Source of the DNA: Gammaproteobacteria bacterium
GTDB taxonomy: Bacteria; Pseudomonadota; Gammaproteobacteria; HK1
DNA: 64,000 bases
Assembly: GCA_022824305.1 (NCBI GenBank)
Contig: JAJEAD010000087.1
Location: forward strand, 1 to 64,000
Direction of reading: 5' to 3'
A program made the translations under genes and the position numbers. Of the stretch, positions 49,974 through 62,153 are shown in pieces; position 1 is the first letter of the stretch, and every line of letters begins with the position of its first letter. The notes beneath the pieces are model-generated. The model saw nothing but the letters and a program-made list of their open reading frames with translations, was not told the DNA's origin and made no database searches.

Positions 49974-51623
49974 TCAGGGGTCATAGCCGAAGCGCTCCAC
50001 CCAGGGGGTCAGAGTTTCTATTGCGGGCTTCAGCCACTCTTCGAAGTGCCGGAAACGCCCGACGGAGGACTGGTAGAGGGGGCGCACCACCTGCTCGGCG
50101 CTCGGAGTGGCAGTGTATCGCTCCCGCGCGGTGCGCCGATAGTCGAGCACGGCGTCGTCCCAGGGGAGCCCGAGAAAGGAGAGCAGGGGCGCAAGCGCAT
50201 CGCGCGGGGCGTCGACGAGATGTTCGTAGCGGACTTGGTGCCAGGCGAGCACGCCGGCCTCCAGTACTTCCATGCCGGCCCCCATCACCTCGTCGTAGTA
50301 GGCGACGGTGCTCTCCCAGCTCAGGAAGTTGATCATCGCGGGGTTGAGGTCGAATCGCTGCTGGAAGCAGCTCAGGCACGCGTCGCGGGGATCTCGCACC
50401 GCGAGCAGCACCCGGGCGTCGGGAAAGATGCGTGCGATCAGTCCGAGAAGAATGGTGTTGAGGGGCAGCTTGTCGACGACCAGGCATCCTTCACGACGCG
50501 TGTCCCGGAGCTCCGCGTCGACCCGCTGCCAGTACTCCCGTCGCGCCTCGCGGAGCGCATCCTCGGGCAGCCCCTCGAGGTCGTCGAGGGCGGCGTCGGA
50601 AGCGGCGAAGCGCGCGTAGGCGCCGCCGAGCAGATCGCGCTCCTCGAGGACGAGGATTTCGGGGTGGGAGGACAGCATGGTGTCGAGCAGCGTGGTGCCG
50701 GAACGCGGGAAGCCGAGCAGGAAGACCGGCGCCGCTCCGCTTCCCTCCGGCGCCCGGCGGGGCCAGGCGGAGACGCGCTCGCGCGTGAGGTGCCGGCGCA
50801 GGCGCCGGACGTTCGAGAGCGCCCCGAAAGTCGAAACGTCGTGTCCCAGCTCGGCCATCGCCGGGGCCCGAATCGCCTCGTTGGAACGGCAGTAGGCGGC
50901 GAATGCGGCCTCGTACTCGCCGAGCGCCTCGAGGCACTGCGCCCGCCTGCCTTCGGCCAGCGCTCGCGTCGTCGGATCGAGGTCGCCGCGCTCGACCAGG
51001 CGATCCAGACGCCGGCGCCCCTCTTCGAAGCGCCGTGCCCGAAAGTCGATGTTCGCCAGCGTCAGCGATGCTCCCGCGTGGTCCGCCCGGCGGGCGAGGA
51101 CCCGCCGGCAGAGCGCCGCCGCCTCCTCCGTCCCCGCGCCGTGGGAGAGCAGCTCGGCGAGTCCCGTGCTCGCGTCGACGAAGTCGGGGTTCGACTTGAG
51201 CGCCGCGCGGAAGTGGCGCTCCGCGTCATCCAGTCTCTTCTCGTTCAGCATGAGCCGCGCGAGGTTGAAGTGGGCCGGAGCCAGGCGCGGTGCGCGCGCG
51301 AGCGCCGACTCGAAAGCCTGCCGGGCACGGGCGGCGTCGCCGCGCGCGAGGTGGACGAGGCCGAGATCGTTGTGCACCGCCGCATTGCCGGGATCCAGAC
51401 GGGCGGCCCGGTCGAGAAAGGGCAGGGCGCGTTCCGGCTGCGACGACTGTCCGAGCACGGTGCCCGTCAGCAACAGCGCCGGCACGTCGTCGGGACGGCG
51501 CTCGAGAACCTGGCGGCACTGCTCGAGCGCCCCGTGGAAGTCACCGTGCCGCAGGCGCGTGCGCGCTTCGACGAGATGGTCCCGACCCCGTCCTCTCCGG
51601 CGTCCTCTTGCCGCGCGGCTCAA
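49974..51623 (-). CDS. TPR-repeat sulfotransferase fusion
   Basis: From a TTG that overlaps the preceding stop (TTGA), this is 549 residues. The first 270 residues are TPR helices. The rest is a sulfotransferase with the PAPS 5'-phosphosulfate loop PVFLLGFPRSGTTLLDTML and the 3'-phosphate region AVRDPRDACLSCF. It should transfer sulfate from PAPS to a protein, peptide or glycan bound by the TPRs. The start is uncertain since no ATG lies in frame near the overlap. It is coupled to the oxygenase-like TPR gene. Confidence 0.78.
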   Translation of the reverse strand: MSRAARGRRRGRGRDHLVEARTRLRHGDFHGALEQCRQVLERRPDDVPALLLTGTVLGQSSQPERALPFLDRAARLDPGNAAVHNDLGLVHLARGDAARARQAFESALARAPRLAPAHFNLARLMLNEKRLDDAERHFRAALKSNPDFVDASTGLAELLSHGAGTEEAAALCRRVLARRADHAGASLTLANIDFRARRFEEGRRRLDRLVERGDLDPTTRALAEGRRAQCLEALGEYEAAFAAYCRSNEAIRAPAMAELGHDVSTFGALSNVRRLRRHLTRERVSAWPRRAPEGSGAAPVFLLGFPRSGTTLLDTMLSSHPEILVLEERDLLGGAYARFAASDAALDDLEGLPEDALREARREYWQRVDAELRDTRREGCLVVDKLPLNTILLGLIARIFPDARVLLAVRDPRDACLSCFQQRFDLNPAMINFLSWESTVAYYDEVMGAGMEVLEAGVLAWHQVRYEHLVDAPRDALAPLLSFLGLPWDDAVLDYRRTARERYTATPSAEQVVRPLYQSSVGRFRHFEEWLKPAIETLTPWVERFGYDP

Positions 51624-52894
51624 TCCGGCACCATGTCGAGGCTGACGACGTTCTGCCGCTCCGCTCCCTCCGGGGACCGGAGCGAATGAAAGAGGTAGGA
51701 GGGGAAGAGCACCAGGCGCCCCGGGTCGAGCGCAATCCTGCGCTCGGCGAATCGCGAGCTCCCCCGGTGGCGGGGCGGTGGCGCTCCCAGCTCGACGATT
51801 GGAGGCTCGCACGAGGCGCCGCCCGGCGTGACGGCATAGACGCCGCTCACCCAGCCCCGTTCCCGGATTTCCGTCTCGCTGCAAGCGCCGCCCGGGAGAC
51901 ACAGCATGTCGCCCTCGATGTGGAAGTCGCGAGGACGCCACCTGAGAAAACGGTGTCGATCGTCGTGGGGGCGGTGGTCGAGATACCACTTCGCCGCTTC
52001 GGCAAAGCGGGCGGCGAGGGCGCCGGGGGCGCCTCCGGCGCCTCGAAAGAGCTCGTGGCTGCGCGTGGGGTGGGAGCGGTCGGAGGATGCCGTTCCGTTC
52101 CCGATGTCCGTCAAGGCCCGCGCAAGGTCGGCATCGAAGTCTTTCACCTCCCGGTACGGAGGGGGCGCTTCCATCCGTCGCAGACGTACCAGGCGCTCGA
52201 GATCCAGAAGCGCCCGGCTCGCCTCGTGATCCCCGATGCGGGCGAGCGCGAGCGCTTCGAGCGCCATGGCGTGACGGTTGCGGGCCTCATGGCGCAGGCA
52301 GTGCCGGCATTCCTCGAGCGCTCCCTCCGCGTCACCCGCCTCGAGCCGCAGCTCCGCGAGCAGAATCCGGGGGGCGGGCTGGCCGGGCATCCGATTCGCC
52401 GCCCGCTCGGCCAGGGCGATCGCTTCCGCGAGCTCGCCCTGCTGGCGCAGCGCGGTGGCGAAATTGAAACGGATGAGGGGAGCCGACGCGCCGAGGCGGA
52501 TCGCCTCGCGATAGCTCTCCACCGCGCCGGGGAGATCTCCCTCGCGCTGGCGCAGCACTCCGAGGTCCGCGTGCGCATCGGCGCGCCGGGAATCGATGGC
52601 GATCGCCGCCCGGTAGCTCTCGCCGGCTTCCGTCTCGCGCCCCGATTCGGAGAGCGCCTTGCCGAGATGCACCCGGAGCGTGGCGTCGTCGGGGGCTTGG
52701 GCGATGGCCCGGCGAAAGAGATCGATGGCGCGATCGTGATCGCCGCGACGGCTCCGCAGTATGCCGAGCAGGTGAAGCGCGCCCGCGTGGTCGGGCTCGG
52801 TGTCCACGATCTCCCGGCAGAGCTCCTCCGCCCGCTCCGGGTCGCCTCGGCGCTGATGTGCGATTGCCGCCGCCAGGGCAGCGTCGCTTTCCAT
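51620..52894 (-). CDS. TPR protein with degenerate-looking 2OG-Fe(II) oxygenase domain
   Basis: This 424-residue protein has TPR repeats (about 1-245) and a C-terminal domain of the PF13759 oxygenase type (about 310-424). The distal His and Arg are present (H403, R406 in FHSLRSPEG), but the segment before SGVYAV (340-349, ETEIRERGWV) lacks the usual His-x-His/Asp pair, so metal binding may be impaired or altered. It starts a minus-strand operon with the sulfotransferase and is divergent from the glycine-rich peptide cluster. Confidence 0.68.
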   Translation of the reverse strand: MESDAALAAAIAHQRRGDPERAEELCREIVDTEPDHAGALHLLGILRSRRGDHDRAIDLFRRAIAQAPDDATLRVHLGKALSESGRETEAGESYRAAIAIDSRRADAHADLGVLRQREGDLPGAVESYREAIRLGASAPLIRFNFATALRQQGELAEAIALAERAANRMPGQPAPRILLAELRLEAGDAEGALEECRHCLRHEARNRHAMALEALALARIGDHEASRALLDLERLVRLRRMEAPPPYREVKDFDADLARALTDIGNGTASSDRSHPTRSHELFRGAGGAPGALAARFAEAAKWYLDHRPHDDRHRFLRWRPRDFHIEGDMLCLPGGACSETEIRERGWVSGVYAVTPGGASCEPPIVELGAPPPRHRGSSRFAERRIALDPGRLVLFPSYLFHSLRSPEGAERQNVVSLDMVPD

Positions 52895-53397
52895 ATCGGG
52901 GGGCGTCGGGGTGGCCGGAAAACGTCATTGTAGCCGTCGTCCGCGGCCCGCACGCGCCGGATCGCGCCGGCGCCGGCATCCCCTTGTTCCTGGACATGCG
53001 TCGCGCAACCGGATCAATCCACGCTGCCGCAACCCGGGAGAGCCGCCGCCGGCATGGCGCATGCGTATCCGGGCTCGGGTCCCCGGACCCCGACCGTCGT
53101 GCCGGGAGGGGTGTGGACGGCCGCCTACGGGCGGCTTCTCCGAATCCGACGTGCGCTCGGGCCCGGTCCGCACGTGTGCCGGAGGCGGGGAACCCGTCCC
53201 GGCGCTTGATCGCGGAAGTGCGGTGGGAGGAGAGTTCCCGACACGTTTCGACACGCGTTCACGTCCGGCGGGGGAAGCCCGGAATCGGCGGAAGGCCTGA
53301 CGAGCGGCAAGGCGGCTGCACTTGGCGGTACAGGCGCATCTTCTCGACACTTCGCTCGAGGCGGCCAAAGCGGGCCGCCCGGCCAGGGAGGCAACAC
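52895..53397. promoter_or_regulatory. divergent control region of the peptide cluster
   Basis: These 503 bases separate the TPR-oxygenase gene (minus) from the glycine-rich peptide gene (plus) and should hold promoters for both. A hairpin, GGCCGCC facing GGCGGC at about 53119-53135, is followed by TTCTCC. GGGAGG lies just before the peptide ATG. I see no gene and no clear -35/-10 pair. Confidence 0.4.
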
Positions 53398-53718
53398 ATG
53401 AAGAAGATCATGGACATATCCCAACGCGCGTTTTGCTCTTGCGGCGACGGCGGAGGGGGCGGAGGAGGCGGCGGCTTCGCTTCGGATGCCGCAGAGTGCG
53501 CTACGGACATCGCCAGGGGAGCCGCCGCCGGCGCGATGATCGGGGGTGCGAGCGGCGCGGTCGGCGGAGCTGCCCTCGGGATGACGGGGCTCGCGCCCGG
53601 GGTAGCCGTCGGCGCCACCGCCGGGGCCATCGCCGGCGGGAGTGGAGGCGCCGTCAGCGGCGGCATCAGCGGCGCCATGGACAGCGAAGCCTGCGACAGA
53701 GCCTCGCGCGGTCGATAG
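53398..53718 (+). CDS. glycine-zipper small peptide, putative exported bacteriocin-like precursor
   Basis: This 106-residue peptide starts with a short polar segment containing C13 and C15, then nine glycines (18-26), then a long hydrophobic Gly/Ala core (about 40-93) with repeated G-x-x-x-G spacing, and ends with a charged tail. C34 and C99 flank the core and could form a disulfide. The layout recalls colicin V-like and Blp bacteriocins with glycine zippers, though a classical double-Gly leader is not clear. GGGAGG precedes the ATG at good spacing. It opens the cluster with ACP, KAS and type I secretion genes. Confidence 0.6.
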   Translation: MKKIMDISQRAFCSCGDGGGGGGGGGFASDAAECATDIARGAAAGAMIGGASGAVGGAALGMTGLAPGVAVGATAGAIAGGSGGAVSGGISGAMDSEACDRASRGR

Positions 53719-53821: not shown

Positions 53822-54082
53822 ATGAACAAGCCCGGAGTGCGGGAGATCCTGTTCTTTGCCGGTATCTTCCTCGTCGTGCATTTCGTGACGAGCCTGTTCG
53901 TCGAGCACGCCTCGTTGCGCGATGCGGCACCCGCTTCGAGCGCTTCGGAAGTCGCGGCCGAGCTGCTGGTTCAGTCGGTGATCGCGGCCTCTCTGGCCGC
54001 ACCGGCCTACTTCGTGCTCATGTCCTGGTACCGGCGTTTCGACTCGAAGCGAAAAGGTCCCGCCGCCGGGGACGAGAAATGA
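53822..54082 (+). CDS. small two-helix membrane protein
   Basis: This 86-residue protein has two predicted membrane helices (about 8-27 and 48-69) and a basic C-terminal tail. I recognise no family. Its stop overlaps the ACP start by an ATGA, so it is translated with the ACP. By position it could be an immunity protein for the glycine-zipper peptide or an export accessory factor; both are inferences. Confidence 0.55.
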   Translation: MNKPGVREILFFAGIFLVVHFVTSLFVEHASLRDAAPASSASEVAAELLVQSVIAASLAAPAYFVLMSWYRRFDSKRKGPAAGDEK

Positions 54083-54342
54083 GGGAGGAGGTCCTGCGCA
54101 TCGTCGCGAGGGAGTACGGTCTCGACGAGGTTCCCGCCCCCACCCTTTCCCTGGTGGACCTCGATGCGGACTCGATTGACCTGATCTGCGTGGTGAGCGC
54201 GCTGGAGGAGCGATTCGGGTTCCAGTTTCCCCTGGATGTCGATGCGCTCGAGCTCGAAACCGTGGGAGACATCGTCCGAACGGTGGAGAAGCACGTCACT
54301 GCTCGCGAAGGTGCCACCCCCCGGCTGCCCGCCCGACAGTAG
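54079..54342 (+). CDS. acyl carrier protein
   Basis: This 87-residue protein has the ACP four-helix pattern and the phosphopantetheine site S32 in LDADSIDLI (DSI rather than the common DSL). It is too far from fatty acid synthesis genes to be the housekeeping AcpP and is paired with a ketoacyl synthase 12 bases downstream. It probably carries an acyl chain for the product of this cluster. It overlaps the two-helix membrane protein gene by four bases. Confidence 0.85.
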   Translation: MREEVLRIVAREYGLDEVPAPTLSLVDLDADSIDLICVVSALEERFGFQFPLDVDALELETVGDIVRTVEKHVTAREGATPRLPARQ

Positions 54343-54354
54343 GCGGAGTACTTC

Positions 54355-55563
54355 TTGAACGGACTGCACAGGGAGGTTGCGGTCACCGGGCTCGGCGCGG
54401 TCGCCGCGCCGGACATCGGCTCGGAGCGCCTGTGGCGTGCAATGCTGCAGGCGCGATCGGGAATCGCCACGCTCGAGGCTCCACTGGCCCGGGGCCTTCG
54501 CGCGCCGGTTGCGGCCCGGGTGAAGGGCTTCGTTCCGCCGGCGGACCCGAGGAGGACCGATCCCTTCGTGCAGTTTGCTCTCGCCGCCAGCGCCGAGGCG
54601 CTGAGCCGGGCGGAGCTCATGCATCGTGTCGCGGGCCCCCGCACCGCCGTCGTGATGGGAACGGGAATCGGGGGCGAGACTACCCGCGACGCGGGCGCGC
54701 GCGCTCTGTACCTCGACGGCGCCGCCCGTCTCGATCCCTGTACCCTCCCCAAGGTCATGCCGAGCAGCGCGGCGTCGCGAGTCGCGATGGCGCACGGAGT
54801 GACGGGTCCGGTCTTCTCCGTCACCTCGGCCTGCGCATCGGCCGCCCAGGCGATCGGGCTCGCGTTCCGGATGGTGCGATCGGGGATGGTGGACACCGCG
54901 ATTGCCGGCGGCAGCGAAGCGTGCCTCACCTTCGGGACGCTCAAGGCCTGGGAATCGCTGAGGGTCCTCTCCCCCGACCTTTGCCGGCCCTTCTCCCGGG
55001 GACGCAGAGGGCTGGTCCTCGGAGAAGGCGCCGGCGTACTCCTGCTGGAGCGGGCGGACCGCGCCAGGGCGCGAGGAGCGCGAATCGCGGCCGAAATCGC
55101 GGGCTTCGGAATGAGCTCGGATGCGCGCGACATGCTTCGGCCGGACGTCGCCGGTCCGGTCCGGGCCATGCGCGCCGCCCTCCTCGATGCCCGCGTCTCG
55201 ATCGAGCAGGTCGGCCACATCAATGCCCACGGGAGCGGCACGCCGACCAACGACGAGGTCGAATCCCGGGCCATCACGAAGGTCTTCGGCCGCCGCACCG
55301 GGGAGATCGCCGTGACCTCCACCAAGGCCGTGCACGGGCACGCCCTCGGCGCCTCGGGCGCGCTGGAAGCCATCGCCACCATCGAGGCGATACGCAATCG
55401 GCTGGTCCCGCCGATCGCCAACTTCCTCGGCCCCGATCCCGCGTGCGATCTGAATGTCGTGACGGGCGGGCCGCGTCGCGTGGACATTCAGGTCGCGCTC
55501 TCCAACTCCTTTGCCTTCGGCGGACTCAACGCGGTGCTGGTCTTCCGGGCGGGTCGCCAGTGA
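54355..55563 (+). CDS. beta-ketoacyl-ACP synthase (KAS II/FabF-like)
   Basis: This 402-residue condensing enzyme has the complete Cys-His-His triad: C160 (VTSACASA), H292 (INAHGSG) and H329 (VHGHALGASG), with K324. It should extend an acyl chain on the cluster's own ACP. The start is TTG with GGCGGAG seven bases upstream. The stop overlaps the ABC gene GTG (GTGA). No ketoreductase or dehydratase is present, so either one elongation occurs or housekeeping FAS enzymes finish the chain. Confidence 0.85.
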   Translation: MNGLHREVAVTGLGAVAAPDIGSERLWRAMLQARSGIATLEAPLARGLRAPVAARVKGFVPPADPRRTDPFVQFALAASAEALSRAELMHRVAGPRTAVVMGTGIGGETTRDAGARALYLDGAARLDPCTLPKVMPSSAASRVAMAHGVTGPVFSVTSACASAAQAIGLAFRMVRSGMVDTAIAGGSEACLTFGTLKAWESLRVLSPDLCRPFSRGRRGLVLGEGAGVLLLERADRARARGARIAAEIAGFGMSSDARDMLRPDVAGPVRAMRAALLDARVSIEQVGHINAHGSGTPTNDEVESRAITKVFGRRTGEIAVTSTKAVHGHALGASGALEAIATIEAIRNRLVPPIANFLGPDPACDLNVVTGGPRRVDIQVALSNSFAFGGLNAVLVFRAGRQ

Positions 55564-57731
55564 GCAGGCTCGACGGCGGCGTGCGGGTCGAGTCGTCACC
55601 GCCCCCGGGGCGGCAGCGGTCGGCGCCGTCTTCCGATCCGTCGATAGACCGCGCCGTGGGCGCGCTCGCCCATCTTGCGCGACGCCTGGAGATAGCCATG
55701 GACCAGGCGGTGCTTCGGGCCGATCTTCGCCGGCAGGGGGGCAATGTCGACGCCGAAACGCTTGCCCGGGCGGTGCGCCGAGTCGGACTGCCGGTCGTCT
55801 TCGCCCGATTCGAGCGCGGGGCGGCCGGGCAATTGATAGCACCCGCCCTGGTCGAGGTCGGGGACGACGAATGGTGGCTGGTGGAGCGGGTGGGGCCCCT
55901 CCGGGTCGAGTTGAGCAGGTCGGGGGACGACGTGCCCTGGCGGCTCTCGCGGCGGCGCTTCCGGCGCCGCTGGACCGGCGTGGCGGCAATCTCGGTCCTT
56001 GCCGCGCCCGGCACGGAAGACGCGTCCGGAGCTTCTTCGCCATGCCCGCTGCGCGCCGCCTTCGCCCGGCGCCGCGACGTGCTGGTGGAGCTGCTGGCCG
56101 CTTCCCTCCTGATCCAGGGGCTGTCCCTGGCGGCGCCGATCGCATTCCTGCTCGTGATCGACAAGGTCATACATCACCGGGGCATCAATACCCTGGACGT
56201 CATCCTGGCCGCACTCGTGGGCATCGCCTTGTTCGAGGCGATCACCGCCGGACTTCGGACTCGTGTCCTCGGCCGAACCGCCTCCGGCATCGACGTGGAA
56301 GTCACCGCGGCCCTCTTCCGGCACTTGACCGAGCTTCCCCTCGCACGATTCGTATCGGCTCCCGTCGGCGGGCTTCTCGGCCATTTCGGAGAGGCCGACA
56401 GCTTGCGTGGCCATGTCGTGCGGGCCGCCGCGGGGTCGCTCGCCGACATGCTGTTCGCGACTCTCTTCATGGCGCTGCTCTTCTATCTCTCGGCGTCCAT
56501 GGCCGGCATCGTGGTGGCGGCGCTGCTGCTGCAGTTGGCCGCAGCGCTTGCCGCAACGCCCCTGCAGCGCTCCGCCCTACGTGAGCGACAGGATCGGAGC
56601 CGATCCAACCAGAGCCTCCTCGCCGAGACCCTGCTCGGAATCGAGACCGTGAAGTCCCTGGCCATGGAGACCGCGCAGCAGCGGCGATGGGACACGCAGC
56701 TCGCGACCTACGCCCTGGCGCAGGATCGCGCGCAGAGGATATCCAACATCGCGGAGCAATCGAGCGAGCTGATCGGCAAGCTCATGACCGCCGTGCTCCT
56801 CTGGCACGGAGCGCAGCAGGTCATCGCCGAGAGTCTGACCCTGGGTCAGTTGATCGCCATCAACCTCATCGCGGGCAGAATTTCCACGCCGGTAGTGCGG
56901 CTCGGCCGGTACTGGCTGGAGCTCGAGGGCGCGCGTCTCGCCTATGGCAGCCTGAAGGACCTGTTCTCGATCGAATCCGAAACCCGTCGCCGGCGCCCCC
57001 CGATGCCTGCGATAAGGGGAGAGGTCGAGTTTGATCGCGTCACCTTTGCGTACTCGCCCGAGGGTCCCCGCGTTCTCGAGGGAACGACATTCCGGATTGA
57101 TGCCGGCGAGGTCGTCGCCCTCGTCGGGCCTTCGGGCACCGGAAAAAGCACGGTGGCCCGCTTGCTCGCCGGTCTTCACGTTCCAGGCGAGGGCCGGGTG
57201 ACCATTGACGGAATCGACATTTCCGCCGTGGAGCCGGCCACCCTGCGCAGCCAGATCGGACTGGTGTCGCAGGACTGCTTTCTCTTTGCCCGTTCGGTTC
57301 GCGAGAACATCGCCGTCAGCGACCCGACCATGGGCTTCGAACGAGTCGTGGAGGCCGCACGGCTGGCGGGCGCTCACGAGTTCGTCGTCCGACTGCCCCA
57401 GGGCTACGACACCCAGGTGGGGGAACGGGGCGCCAACCTCTCCGGGGGCCAGCGCCAGCGCCTTGCGCTGGCCCGGACGCTCGCGAGCAATCCTTCGATT
57501 CTGGTCCTAGACGAATCGACGAGCGCGGTCGACCCCGGCGTGGAGCGCGGCATCGCCGCCCGATTCGAGGCAATCGCGCGGGGACGCACTGTCGTGATCA
57601 TCGGTCACCGCGGACTGCTGATGGAGAAGGCTGACCGCACCCTCGCGCTGAAGGGAGGCCGGATTCGGCCGGCCACCGGTGCCGGCGGCGATGCCGTCGG
57701 GCATCAAGCGGCGAGCGAAGACCCCCATTAG
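55560..57731 (+). CDS. type I secretion ABC ATPase with cysteine-less C39-like domain
   Basis: This 723-residue protein has an N-terminal C39-like domain (about 25-150), six membrane helices (about 170-445) and an NBD with Walker A GPSGTGKS (523-530) and LSGGQ (about 627). The peptidase-like domain has no catalytic Cys, so it should bind rather than cut cargo, as in HlyB. It is a HlyB/LapB-type exporter. Start is a GTG overlapping the KAS stop. The adaptor gene follows; an outer-membrane TolC is presumably elsewhere. Confidence 0.85.
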   Translation: MSRLDGGVRVESSPPPGRQRSAPSSDPSIDRAVGALAHLARRLEIAMDQAVLRADLRRQGGNVDAETLARAVRRVGLPVVFARFERGAAGQLIAPALVEVGDDEWWLVERVGPLRVELSRSGDDVPWRLSRRRFRRRWTGVAAISVLAAPGTEDASGASSPCPLRAAFARRRDVLVELLAASLLIQGLSLAAPIAFLLVIDKVIHHRGINTLDVILAALVGIALFEAITAGLRTRVLGRTASGIDVEVTAALFRHLTELPLARFVSAPVGGLLGHFGEADSLRGHVVRAAAGSLADMLFATLFMALLFYLSASMAGIVVAALLLQLAAALAATPLQRSALRERQDRSRSNQSLLAETLLGIETVKSLAMETAQQRRWDTQLATYALAQDRAQRISNIAEQSSELIGKLMTAVLLWHGAQQVIAESLTLGQLIAINLIAGRISTPVVRLGRYWLELEGARLAYGSLKDLFSIESETRRRRPPMPAIRGEVEFDRVTFAYSPEGPRVLEGTTFRIDAGEVVALVGPSGTGKSTVARLLAGLHVPGEGRVTIDGIDISAVEPATLRSQIGLVSQDCFLFARSVRENIAVSDPTMGFERVVEAARLAGAHEFVVRLPQGYDTQVGERGANLSGGQRQRLALARTLASNPSILVLDESTSAVDPGVERGIAARFEAIARGRTVVIIGHRGLLMEKADRTLALKGGRIRPATGAGGDAVGHQAASEDPH

Positions 57732-57782
57732 TGCGGGGTTCGACCGAGAGTGAGCGACCATGGCGCACCATTCGGAGTGGCC

Positions 57783-59117
57783 ATGCGCCGCACCACCCCG
57801 CTCGGCCGGGCGCTCACGATTCCCGTTGCGCTCGGACTCTTCGGGTTGGCCTGGGCCTCGCTCTCGGAGGTCGACGTGGTGGCGACGGCAACCGGGCGGC
57901 TGATTCCTTCAGGGCATGTCAAGCAGGTGCAGCCGAGCGAGGACGGCGTCGTCAGCCGGATCCTGGTCGGGGAAGGGGAGAGGGTCTTCGCCGGGCAGCC
58001 GGTGCTGCTGCTCGATGCCACGGAGGTCGAGGCCGACCTGCGCCGCATCGAGGTGGAGCTCGAGAACGCCCGCATGGGTCGGCTCCGTCTGATTGCGGCG
58101 CTCGAAGGACGCGAGGACGCCGACCTCGCACCCGCTTCCCGGTCCGGGGAAACCCGGGCGTTCACGCAGCGCGCGTACCTGCGCACGCTGCTCCAGCAGC
58201 ATCGTGCGGAGCAGGCGAAGGTGGAGGGAGAGTCGAAGCTCGCCCGGTCGGAGCTCGTCTCGGCGCAGGCCCGTCATCGGATGCTCCACGACGTGCTCGA
58301 GCTTCTCGAAGAGCGGCACGCTGCTGCCGACCAGCTCGTCCGCCAGGGAGTCATGCCGCGCCTGCGCATTCTCGAGTTGCGCGAAGAGCTACTGCGCACC
58401 CGACAGGCCCATGCGGAGGAGACCCTGGCCATCGCCCGCGCCCGGGCCCGCATCGCCAGTGCCGACCAGCAGGGCCGGCGCCTGCTGGCCGAGTTCAGGA
58501 ACGGTCTCCGCCGGGAGCAGTTGGGGCTCGAGGAACGTATCGCCGTTCTCGAGCAGGAGCTGGTGAAGACCCGGCGGCGACGGGAGCGCATGACGCTGCG
58601 CGCCCCCGTCGACGGCTCGGTGCAGGAGATGTCGGTGTTCACCGAGGGCGGCGTCGTGGCCGCCGGACAGCCGGTGATGAGCGTGGTGCCTTCCGACAGC
58701 ACGCTCATCGTGGAAGCGCGGCTGCTCAACAAGGATGTCGGGTTCGTTCGAGCGGGCCAGCCCGCGTCGGTGAAGCTCGCCGCCTTCCCCTTCACCCGCT
58801 ACGGCGACATCGAGGGACGGGTCGAGAGGGTTTCCGAGGACGTGCTCAGCTTCGGCCGCCAGCCGCCGGCCCTTGCGCTTGGCGACGACGTGGGCACCCG
58901 GCAGGCACTGGCCGATCTGCAGGCGCAGATGGCGGGCAACAGCTACCTCGTTCGCGTCGATCTCGACACGCAGGTCATGCTCCTTCCCGAGGGCATCGCG
59001 CCACTTGCCGCGGGAATGATCGCGACCGTGGACATCGCGACCGGCCGGCGTCGGATCATCGATTTTCTCCTGTCCCCGCTGAAGCGCTACGGCAGCGAGA
59101 GCCTGCGCGAGAGATGA
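57783..59117 (+). CDS. HlyD-family type I secretion adaptor
   Basis: This 444-residue protein has one N-terminal membrane helix (about 10-30), a lipoyl half-motif (VQPSEDGVVSRILVGEGE), a long coiled-coil hairpin (about 85-270), the second half-motif (MTLRAPVDGSVQEMSVF) and a C-terminal beta domain. It spans the periplasm between the ABC ATPase and TolC. The ATG at 57783 has CGGAG upstream; a GTG at 57750 would add 11 residues. Confidence 0.88.
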   Translation: MRRTTPLGRALTIPVALGLFGLAWASLSEVDVVATATGRLIPSGHVKQVQPSEDGVVSRILVGEGERVFAGQPVLLLDATEVEADLRRIEVELENARMGRLRLIAALEGREDADLAPASRSGETRAFTQRAYLRTLLQQHRAEQAKVEGESKLARSELVSAQARHRMLHDVLELLEERHAAADQLVRQGVMPRLRILELREELLRTRQAHAEETLAIARARARIASADQQGRRLLAEFRNGLRREQLGLEERIAVLEQELVKTRRRRERMTLRAPVDGSVQEMSVFTEGGVVAAGQPVMSVVPSDSTLIVEARLLNKDVGFVRAGQPASVKLAAFPFTRYGDIEGRVERVSEDVLSFGRQPPALALGDDVGTRQALADLQAQMAGNSYLVRVDLDTQVMLLPEGIAPLAAGMIATVDIATGRRRIIDFLLSPLKRYGSESLRER

Positions 59118-59155: not shown

Positions 59156-59608
59156 GTGAACCTGCGATGCGCCACCGCCGACGATTTCGAAGAAGGGATG
59201 GAGCTCGGCCGCCGAATGCACGAGGAAAGCGAGTTCGCGTTCCTTCCCTTCGATCGGGAAAAGGTCCGCGCCTTTCTTCGCCACATCGCCGCCAACCCCC
59301 GGCACTACTGCGCTTTCGTGGTAGAGCATGAAGGCCGCCTCGTCGGCCTGCTCGTCGGACAGGTCATGGAGTACTTCTTCTGCCGGGAGCTGCTCTGCGA
59401 CGACGTCCTCCTCTTCGTGGAGCGGGACCGGCGTGGATCGCTCGCCGCGCTCGCGCTCGTGCGTGCGTATCTCGAGTGGTCGCGGAGCAAGGGTGCGCGC
59501 GAGGCCCGGGTCGCGGTGTCGACCGGAATCGACGTCGATCGGACCGGCGCCTTTCTGCAGCGCCTGGGCTTTCGGCGCGTCGGCGGAGTCTACAAGCACC
59601 GGTTCTGA
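59156..59608 (+). CDS. GNAT-family N-acyltransferase
   Basis: This 150-residue GNAT has the acyl-CoA-binding motif A, RDRRGSLAALAL (90-101), and the C-terminal FLQRLGFRRVGGVYK. In this cluster it could transfer an acyl chain from the ACP or from CoA to the exported peptide, as GNAT maturases do in fatty-acylated ribosomal peptides; this is inference. Start is GTG after GGAG. It is six bases before the DUF2927 gene. Confidence 0.78.
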   Translation: MNLRCATADDFEEGMELGRRMHEESEFAFLPFDREKVRAFLRHIAANPRHYCAFVVEHEGRLVGLLVGQVMEYFFCRELLCDDVLLFVERDRRGSLAALALVRAYLEWSRSKGAREARVAVSTGIDVDRTGAFLQRLGFRRVGGVYKHRF

Positions 59609-59614
59609 ATTCGG

Positions 59615-60523
59615 ATGGCACGGAACATTCCCGGCGGGGCGGCGAGGCGGGGGCTCGAGCTCGCGGCCCTGGCGTTCAGCGTCTCGGTCGCGATGGAGGG
59701 CGCGTGCGCCGACCCGCCGGGTCTCGTTCCCTCCGACCAGGAGCTTGCCCGCCTCTTCGCGGAGCTCGCGACGGGGCGCGAGTTCGAGAGAAGAGGGCGC
59801 ACGCTTCGCTGGGAGCGCCCGGTCCGCTATCTCGTCATGAGCCGCGAGCCCGGCCGGGTCGCCGCGCGCGCGCCGCGCGTGCTGGCGGAGTTCGCGGCCA
59901 TCGCCGGAATCGAGGCGGAGGAAGCCGAGGTCGCATCCTGGTCCGATCCGACCGTGATTCCCGACAACGTATTCACGACGCATGACGGGTTCAGAGGTCA
60001 CATCGAGAGGGTGCGGGGAGACGACGTCGACGATCCGCCCCACTTCGTGGTGACCTGGGGAAGGGGCGCGGCGCTGAATCGAGCCGAGGCGGAGCTCATC
60101 ATCCTCGTGGATGACCGGGAGACCCTGGCCGCGCAGCTTGCCGGGGGTGACGACCACGTCGAGGCGCGTCGCCGCGACCTCCTGCGGGGACGCCTGGATT
60201 GCCTGTTCTTTCTTCACGAGAACCGCGAGTCTCAGATCGTCCTCGGACTGCTCCTCCTGAACACCAGTCTCGATCCGGTGAAGGAAGAGGCCTGCATCAA
60301 CGAGGAGACGTTTCAGATCTTCGGACTCGTCAACGACGTGGTGGAGTCCTCCCTGACCATGCTGGATCAGGGCGACTACTCGGCAAGCTCCGCTCCGACC
60401 GAGTACGACCGCCTGCTGCTTCGCCTGCTCTATCACCCGCGGATGGAGACGGGCCTGGACCACCATTGGGCGAAGCGGCGGGCAATGGAGCTGCTGCCGG
60501 AGCTCAGGGGCGAGGGCGGCTGA
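59615..60523 (+). CDS. DUF2927 protein, probably secreted
   Basis: This 302-residue protein has a hydrophobic N-terminal stretch (about 15-30) ending in a likely signal cleavage site (GACADPP) and a domain with the DUF2927 blocks CLFFLHEN, INEETFQIFGLVND and YDRLLLRLLYHPRM. Conserved Glu, Asp and His residues hint at a metal site. Function is unknown. One base separates it from the next gene, so it is firmly part of the operon. Confidence 0.7.
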   Translation: MARNIPGGAARRGLELAALAFSVSVAMEGACADPPGLVPSDQELARLFAELATGREFERRGRTLRWERPVRYLVMSREPGRVAARAPRVLAEFAAIAGIEAEEAEVASWSDPTVIPDNVFTTHDGFRGHIERVRGDDVDDPPHFVVTWGRGAALNRAEAELIILVDDRETLAAQLAGGDDHVEARRRDLLRGRLDCLFFLHENRESQIVLGLLLLNTSLDPVKEEACINEETFQIFGLVNDVVESSLTMLDQGDYSASSAPTEYDRLLLRLLYHPRMETGLDHHWAKRRAMELLPELRGEGG

Positions 60524-60524
60524 G

Positions 60525-62153
60525 ATGAGTGCGTCCGCACGGCTCGAGCGGCTGCGGGAGATTGTGCGGTGCCGCTCCGTGGTCACGGATTCGCAGCAGC
60601 GGATCGTCTCGCCGCTCGGGGACGAGTATCGGTGGATGGTCGATCTGCGTCCGGCCCTGCTCGACGCGGAGGTGCTGGAAATCTGCGCCGGTGTCTTCTG
60701 GGACCGCTTCGGAGCGCGTCTGCCCTTTCAGATCGGCGGCCTGGAACTGGCGGCGGTGCCGCTGCTCGTGGCGCTGGCGGGAGAGGGGTGGCGGCGGGGC
60801 ACGCCCGTCAACGCTTTCGTCGTGCGCCGGGAGCGCAAGGCGCACGGTCTCTGCCGCCGCATCGAGGGAGAGGTGACCGAAGCGCCCATCGTCGCGGTGG
60901 ACGACCTCGCCAACCGGGGCTCGGCCTTCGAGACCCTGCGCTGCGTGCTCTCGGAAGCGGGCCGGGAGGTCAGCGCCCTCTTCGTGGTGGTGGACTTCCG
61001 CAACCCGCACCTGCACGAACGCCTGGAGAGATGCGGTATCGCGATGGACGCGTTGCTGGCAATCTCGGATCTCGGGCTCGATCCTCTTCCCACGCCCGAG
61101 CCCCGGCCCGGGGCCGGATTCGAGCCGGTGTGGCGAAGCCGGGCCCGGGATCCCAACTACTTCCACGTCGTCCCGAAATCGACCCCGGTCCTCGACGGAA
61201 GCCGCCTCTACGCCGGGAGCGACGACGGCACCTTCCGCGCACTCGATCAGGCGAGCGGCGTCGAGAGATGGCGCCTGCGCACCGACGATCCCCGCCGCAA
61301 GGGCATCTTCTCGTCCCCCGCGCTGCACGCCGGCAGAGTCTACTTCGGAGCCTACGACGGCTGCGTGCGCTGCCTCGATGGCGCAAGCGGCGAGCTCGTG
61401 TGGCGTTTTTTCGGGGCCGACTGGGTCGGCTCTTCGCCGGCACTGGCGCCGGCGCTCGGCCGCCTCTTCATTGGCCTGGAGTACGCGTCGCCACGCCTGC
61501 CCGGCGGCATCGCGGCACTGGACATGGCGGACGGCGAGAAGCTCTGGGAGCTTCGATGCCCGGCCCATGTCCACGGAACGCCGCTGTGGATGCCGGAGCT
61601 CCACGCCGTGGCCTGCGGGGGAAACGACGGCCGGATGCGGCGGCTGGACGCCCGCGACGGCAGCGAGAGCTGGAGCTACGCGGCGGGAGGGGAGATCAAG
61701 GCCCGCGCCGCCTTCGACCGGCACGCGGGGCAGCTCGTGTTCGGCGCCTTCGATGGCGGCATCCATGCCGTCGACGTTGCCGGCGGGGAGCGCCGCTGGC
61801 GCGTCGGGACCCATGACATCGTCTACTCGACCCCGCTTCTCGTCGGCCGCCGCGCCTTCGTCGCCGGCGCCGACAAGTACCTGCACGTCATCGACCTCGA
61901 TTCGGGCGAGGAGGAAGCGGCGCTCTTCACCGGAGCCAGGCTGTACGGCTCTCCCGCCCTGATCGAGGGCCGGGTCCTGTTCGGCAACACCGCGGGCGAG
62001 CTCTACGAGATCGACCCGGGCACCTTGCAGGTCACCGCCTTCGCCCGGCTGCCGGAGGGGATTACCTGTGAAGTGCGCTACGGTGGGAAACACCGCCTCT
62101 ACTTCGTCACCACCTACGACAACGAGATCTTCGCGCTCCGCCGGCATCCTTGA
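60525..62153 (+). CDS. OPRT-like phosphoribosyltransferase domain fused to a PQQ-like beta-propeller
   Basis: This 542-residue protein has an N-terminal type I PRTase fold like orotate phosphoribosyltransferase (about 1-205): VRRERKAHG (100-108) and the PRPP loop VAVDDLANRGSAFETL (123-138), with the two acidic residues kept at 126-127. The rest (about 210-542) is a beta-propeller of repeated GSDDGTFRALD, GAYDGCVRCLD and GAFDGGIHAVD-type blades. No signal peptide is seen. The fusion is unusual. The PRTase could modify a base or make a nucleotide; the propeller may bind the substrate. Confidence 0.75.
   Translation: MSASARLERLREIVRCRSVVTDSQQRIVSPLGDEYRWMVDLRPALLDAEVLEICAGVFWDRFGARLPFQIGGLELAAVPLLVALAGEGWRRGTPVNAFVVRRERKAHGLCRRIEGEVTEAPIVAVDDLANRGSAFETLRCVLSEAGREVSALFVVVDFRNPHLHERLERCGIAMDALLAISDLGLDPLPTPEPRPGAGFEPVWRSRARDPNYFHVVPKSTPVLDGSRLYAGSDDGTFRALDQASGVERWRLRTDDPRRKGIFSSPALHAGRVYFGAYDGCVRCLDGASGELVWRFFGADWVGSSPALAPALGRLFIGLEYASPRLPGGIAALDMADGEKLWELRCPAHVHGTPLWMPELHAVACGGNDGRMRRLDARDGSESWSYAAGGEIKARAAFDRHAGQLVFGAFDGGIHAVDVAGGERRWRVGTHDIVYSTPLLVGRRAFVAGADKYLHVIDLDSGEEEAALFTGARLYGSPALIEGRVLFGNTAGELYEIDPGTLQVTAFARLPEGITCEVRYGGKHRLYFVTTYDNEIFALRRHP

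Follow-up and report, generated by a model that had tools for sequence, protein, structure and literature searches.

The window analysed here, a 64,000-nucleotide stretch of gammaproteobacterial DNA, contains a run of genes on one strand headed by a small open reading frame for a glycine-rich peptide. Behind the peptide lie, in order, an 86-residue protein, an acyl carrier protein (ACP), a ketosynthase (KAS), an ABC exporter, a HlyD-type adaptor, a GNAT-family transferase, a DUF2927 protein and a beta-propeller protein:

53385 to 53391, plus strand: Shine-Dalgarno-like AGGGAGG, read from the sequence, 6 nt before the ATG of the peptide
53398 to 53718, plus strand: 106-residue peptide, with a segment 1-26 (C13/C15 and nine glycines), C34, zipper 1 (G41-G61), P67, zipper 2 (G68-G92) and a polar tail with C99
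53752 to 53798, plus strand: hairpin (perfect 11-bp inverted repeat, no T run) in the gap before the 86-residue gene
53822 to 54082, plus strand: 86-residue protein with hydrophobic segments at about 9-27 and 48-66 (hydropathy)
54079 to 54342, plus strand: acyl carrier protein, PP-binding (PF00550, E 5e-11), its start overlapping the stop of the 86-residue gene
54355 to 55563, plus strand: FabF-like beta-ketoacyl synthase (PF00109/PF02801)
55560 to 57731, plus strand: HlyB-type ABC exporter with a degenerate C39-like N-domain (TIGR01846, match to HlyB in the PDB)
57750 to 59117, plus strand: HlyD-type periplasmic adaptor (TIGR01843, 333 bits, above the cut-off)
59156 to 59608, plus strand: single-domain GNAT acyl/acetyltransferase (PF00583; phrog_1249, E 4e-31)
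59615 to 60523, plus strand: exported-looking DUF2927 protein, metzincin-like motif with its zinc ligands replaced (PF11150, E 3e-24)
60525 to 62153, plus strand: PQQ-type beta-propeller protein, the last gene of the run (PF13360, PF13570)

From the 86-residue gene onward the genes overlap or are separated by fewer than 40 bases, and a gap of 103 nt, which holds the hairpin, separates the peptide gene from them. The folding energy of this hairpin is ordinary for its composition (z -0.61); it is a possible transcript processing or stability element, which would raise the level of peptide mRNA above that of the downstream genes. No Rfam element was found near the peptide, and no sigma-70-like promoter in the gap upstream of it. 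Beyond the beta-propeller gene, whose membership of the system is uncertain, lie lexA and then an imuA-like gene.

Several neighbouring features deserve separate mention. The N-terminus of the beta-propeller protein (about residues 1-180) appears phosphoribosyltransferase-like by eye, with no Pfam match, and similar N-terminal segments occur at three other loci (L087, L089 and L093). In the DUF2927 protein and its relatives (L178-L207), an invariant EExxQxLGLxND-type block aligns with the metzincin motif HExxHxxGxxH, the three zinc-binding histidines being replaced by E, Q and N. The likeliest PDB matches of its AF2 model include myroilysin and matrilysin (probability about 0.5-0.66, E not significant), and DUF2927 is possibly a family of dead metzincins. 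Divergent from the operon, two TPR-domain genes (49977-52894, minus strand) carry a sulfotransferase domain and a putative 2OG-Fe(II) oxygenase domain, respectively; because their strand is opposite to that of the operon and tyrosine is absent from the peptide, we assign them no role.

A peptide with two uncharged glycine zippers

Translation of the reading frame reproduced everything that the sequence-only reading had described in it: 106 residues, the C13/C15 pair, nine consecutive glycines (G18-G26), C34 and C99. These are the only four cysteines, and both lysines are N-terminal. The G-x-x-x-G-spaced core proposed in the same reading resolves into two uncharged zippers, with GxxxG motifs starting at residues 41, 45, 49, 53 and 57 in the first run and at 64, 68, 72, 76, 80, 84 and 88 in the second, a proline (P67) between them, and no charged residue among the 54 residues from 41 to 94. 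Residues 27-106 contain 12 GxxxG motifs against a mean of 4.6 after shuffling, a count reached in none of 20,000 residue shuffles (P<5e-5). Furthermore, when all 106-residue stretches of open frames in the whole window are compared, the peptide scores 18 motifs and the runner-up 10. The pattern is regular and is more than a consequence of glycine richness.

The C-terminus, MDSEACDRASRGR, is short and charged or polar. The N-terminus, MKKIMDISQRAFC, has neither an h-region nor a lipobox on inspection; a GG pair is available within G18-G26, and residues 1-17 do not resemble a known leader. RTX nonapeptide repeats (GGxGxDxUx) are absent by inspection, with no Pfam match. Structure prediction, suggested earlier as a check for a helical hairpin, gave helices at 32-48 and 75-104 in an AF2 model built with no alignment. 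At a pLDDT of about 51 the model is of low confidence and is unusable as support. A fold search with it returned nothing significant, five chains of one alpha-pore-forming toxin appearing at E 3.5 or worse.

An exporter that has lost its peptidase triad

The ABC exporter best fits the HlyB type (TIGR01846, 581 bits, under the model's 725-bit cut-off), and its best match among solved structures is HlyB itself (E 2e-126). Its ATPase motifs are intact on inspection. In an alignment with two intact C39 exporters from the same genome, none of the three catalytic residues (Cys, His and Asp) is retained, which bears out the earlier suggestion that the local exporter cannot cut leaders. With the triad lost, the exporter would therefore trim no leader, and cleavage by it is excluded on known chemistry. 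This triad loss, the sequence features of the peptide and the gene order are established by direct observation at the locus.

Elsewhere, the source genome carries three more export loci, two full and one partial, in which intact C39 exporters occur together with paired second ABC genes (G000:C67:30000-46000, L172; C87:55000-65365, L173; C32:1-6223, L174). These resemble nitrile-hydratase-leader-peptide systems, and one 84-residue precursor-like ORF there ends in AISAGWCCCGN. Such clusters were set aside as a model for the peptide, from which their precursors differ. Cleavage of the peptide in trans by the genome's two other, intact C39 exporters may occur.

A recurrent ACP-ketosynthase module in the export operon

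The most unusual part of the locus is the ACP-ketosynthase gene pair lying between peptide and exporter; the sequence-only reading did not mention it. The ketosynthase retains its Cys-His-His residues on inspection and falls below the cut-off of the fabF equivalog model (TIGR03150, 386 bits against 494). We collected 80 relatives from genomes of Acidobacteria, Alphaproteobacteria and others (37-54% identity); an ACP-like ORF lies directly upstream in 45 of them, against 0.2% of random control positions, the ACP-bearing relatives being mostly those of at least 43% identity. A HlyD match was found near none of the 80. Since ACP-KAS is conserved elsewhere and lies beside HlyD in none of these relatives, what we see here is a conserved acyl-chain module joined to an export operon. 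As an observation in its own right, ACP-KAS is a recurrent two-gene module (54079-55563; L006-L068), and in Rhodobacteraceae and at one further locus (L008) it is preceded by a gene that resembles LpxD by eye.

Searches from the other components gave a similar picture. Among relatives of the ABC exporter in 399 sampled genomes (the best at about 40% identity), ACP or KAS genes occurred in 0 of 20 extended neighbourhoods, and no recurring cluster with ACP-KAS was found around relatives of DUF2927, the GNAT or the ABC exporter. On inspection, no canonical [QR]xxGx[GA] P-loop is present in the GNAT. Of its four best relatives, three belong to prophages, where they sit among phage structural genes, and viral contigs yielded no relatives. 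In one other genome a truncated HlyB-type ABC gene is followed immediately by a GNAT of this family (L213, G308:C1, 10719-12490); that locus, which has no HlyD or peptide and lies near transposase-like ORFs, may be a decayed relative of an export locus like ours. By analogy, the ACP-KAS-GNAT set suggests acylation of the peptide, for which its four cysteines and two lysines are candidate sites.

Sporadic distribution

Neither the peptide nor the 86-residue protein matched any family in Pfam, NCBIfam, PHROG or PADLOC. Across 94 genomes the 86-residue protein had no homologue, and three weak matches to the peptide were rejected: two (L002, L004) are composition-driven hits to glycine-zipper segments of unrelated proteins, and at the third (L003) there is no small ORF linked to a type I secretion system (T1SS). 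Plasmids contained no peptide homologue at E 1. The peptide locus is present in one copy in the source genome, and both small proteins are missing from 16 of 16 same-family genomes. In those genomes lexA and the gene following it are still linked, and the operon genes were not found beside them. Judged from these sequence comparisons, the stretch looks acquired or lineage-specific; the whole operon is a single instance, no second one having turned up in a sample of about 1,700 genome-queries and the scan for KAS relatives.

Comparison with known systems

Among known systems, the peptide comes closest to the Cdz-like, contact-dependent glycine-zipper bacteriocins of Caulobacter (CdzC/CdzD, with CdzAB and CdzI). 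These are defined by a length of 60-151 residues, a leader ending in G[GAS], one or two zippers with proline or charge at their flanks and none within, a short polar or charged C-terminus, a T1SS within about 10 kb and a small transmembrane protein nearby (PMC5380434). The peptide shares the length, at 106 residues, the two unbroken small-residue zippers, G41-G61 and G68-G92, parted by P67 in a chargeless 41-94 region, and the polar C-terminus. Its operon shares linked genes of T1SS type (the ABC at 55560-57731 and HlyD at 57750-59117), a small membrane protein near by and a sporadic distribution. It departs from the Cdz kind in having a nine-glycine run and no recognisable leader, G[GAS] being offered only formally by G18-G26, as well as four cysteines, an exporter with no peptidase triad, and genes for ACP, ketosynthase and GNAT; modification enzymes are not obvious in the cdz cluster (PMC5380434).

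The peptide also resembles class II microcins such as colicin V (MccV) in its T1SS linkage, its small, Gly/Ala-rich hydrophobic character, its cysteines and its putative immunity gene. Class II microcins are defined by a double-glycine leader of 15-18 residues and a C39-peptidase exporter (PMC10233263). Membership was rejected because the exporter has no Cys/His/Asp triad, and such a leader is likewise missing. The earlier proposal of a membrane-inserting toxin of the colicin V type thus survives in part: an exported, colicin-V-like, membrane-inserting peptide is still the best reading, kept because of the uncharged two-zipper core, the absence of a visible signal peptide or lipobox and the direct ABC/HlyD linkage, but the formal class assignment does not hold.

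For the modification genes, partial parallels exist in three other systems. Like the RTX toxin operon HlyCABD, the locus has a HlyB-type exporter that cleaves no leader, together with a proposed acyl-ACP-linked modification; unlike that operon, it has a substrate free of RTX repeats, a GNAT from outside the HlyC family, and its own ACP and KAS genes. In Salmonella, the dedicated ACP IacP is linked to cysteine acylation of the pore former SipB, with membrane insertion promoted as a result (PMC5279801). Both cases pair an ACP gene devoted to a secretion system with a cysteine-bearing substrate that inserts into membranes, as is predicted here, whereas IacP/SipB belongs to a type III rather than a type I system, its substrate is a translocon protein that acts on host cells and no small peptide, and the ketosynthase falls outside the comparison. 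Finally, GNATs lipidate peptides, including selidamides and others (PMC13060382). Here too a GNAT lies beside the gene for a small peptide, the secretion of which is predicted; those precursors are of lanthipeptide, NHLP or Nif11 type, our peptide has no leader of that kind, and our GNAT has one domain and a divergent P-loop.

A model for the operon

We propose that the operon encodes an antibacterial, membrane-inserting peptide that is exported with no local leader cleavage, with immunity conferred by the 86-residue protein and possible fatty acylation by ACP-KAS, perhaps with the GNAT; we place this at just short of an even chance. The two uncharged GxxxG helices would meet at P67 to form a hairpin, which would oligomerise and enter the membrane of neighbouring cells. 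Export of the peptide would be a single step, by way of the HlyB-type ABC exporter, HlyD and a TolC encoded elsewhere. Its N-terminus would stay uncut by the local exporter, any cut in the glycine run falling to another protease, for example an intact C39 exporter elsewhere. The 86-residue protein, small and with two hydrophobic segments, is a plausible candidate immunity protein that would shield the producer. ACP and ketosynthase would provide a dedicated acyl chain to be joined to the peptide at Cys, at Lys or at the N-terminus; the GNAT is the candidate acyl transferase, and the chain would aid membrane insertion. We infer export, toxicity, immunity and acylation of the peptide from gene location and analogy, and acylation is the least certain step.

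Two regular zippers, split by a proline and above chance expectation, speak for this model, as does the position of the peptide at the head of a same-strand run of tightly packed ACP, KAS, ABC, HlyD and GNAT genes. The features shared with the Cdz kind, the exporter with its intact ATPase motifs and no C39 triad, the IacP/SipB and GNAT-lipidation precedents and the GNAT behind an ABC gene in another genome count in its favour too. Against it stand the low-confidence AF2 model, the prophage setting of three of the best GNAT relatives, the single occurrence of the ACP-KAS/T1SS association, the lack of homologues for both small proteins, the weak codon score of the peptide frame (below), the 103-nt gap with its hairpin, the non-canonical GNAT P-loop and the presence of just two lysines. 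A stricter version, in which the locus is a self-contained lipidation-export cassette, its zipper toxin activated by ACP/ketosynthase/GNAT acylation rather than by leader cleavage and passed with an intact N-terminus through a peptidase-less type I system, is more tentative, and we consider it somewhat unlikely.

Alternative readings

The T1SS operon may instead serve another product, a lipid or polyketide amide or some other exported protein made with ACP-KAS-GNAT, the zipper ORF being a co-located, unexported membrane or structural peptide. ACP and KAS adjoin the exporter while the peptide gene lies 103 nt away, and the pair occurs elsewhere in settings with no T1SS. Against this, the exporter has a C39-like domain and belongs to the HlyB type, which exports polypeptides, no further gene for a small or RTX-like substrate was seen next to it, and the peptide has its own Shine-Dalgarno sequence and heads the gene run; we judge this reading unlikely. 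It is also conceivable, at a lower level of probability that we would call distinctly unlikely, that the peptide is exported and forms a non-toxic surface aggregate or adhesin as an amyloid-like glycine zipper. Glycine zippers drive aggregation, and CdzC makes insoluble surface aggregates (PMC5380434), but the small two-transmembrane protein just downstream suits an immunity gene and a single-copy, sporadic occurrence is commoner for competition genes.

A more basic question is whether the ORF is a gene at all. In codon score it leads the six frames, yet the score is weak (0.06 per codon, against 0.16-0.37 in neighbouring genes), with a GC3 of 0.79, and codon use alone is therefore no proof that the ORF is coding. 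An open frame arising by chance in DNA of 70% GC would also be in keeping with a reading frame that stays open far upstream and with the missing homologues. The regular zipper periodicity, 54 residues free of charge, the correctly spaced Shine-Dalgarno sequence and the co-directional genes downstream make such an accident improbable; gene status would thus rest on Shine-Dalgarno sequence, zipper periodicity and operon position. Finally, an outer-membrane glycine-zipper lipoprotein of SlyB/YMGG type, suggested by weak matches to an OmpA-type lipoprotein and to a stress protein, within their glycine-zipper segments, is scarcely credible, since the N-terminus has no visible signal segment or lipobox, the matches are composition-driven and no glycine-zipper Pfam family matches at E 0.05.

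Returning to the antibacterial, acylated peptide that we favour, the model, if true, would join T1SS glycine-zipper bacteriocins with dedicated-ACP activation of a membrane-inserting protein, a pairing not found in the literature searched. The presence of ACP-KAS beside HlyB/HlyD and a small glycine-rich ORF would then provide a search pattern for further cases. More generally, the operon would offer a small, testable system for the cooperation of lipidation and glycine zippers during membrane insertion.
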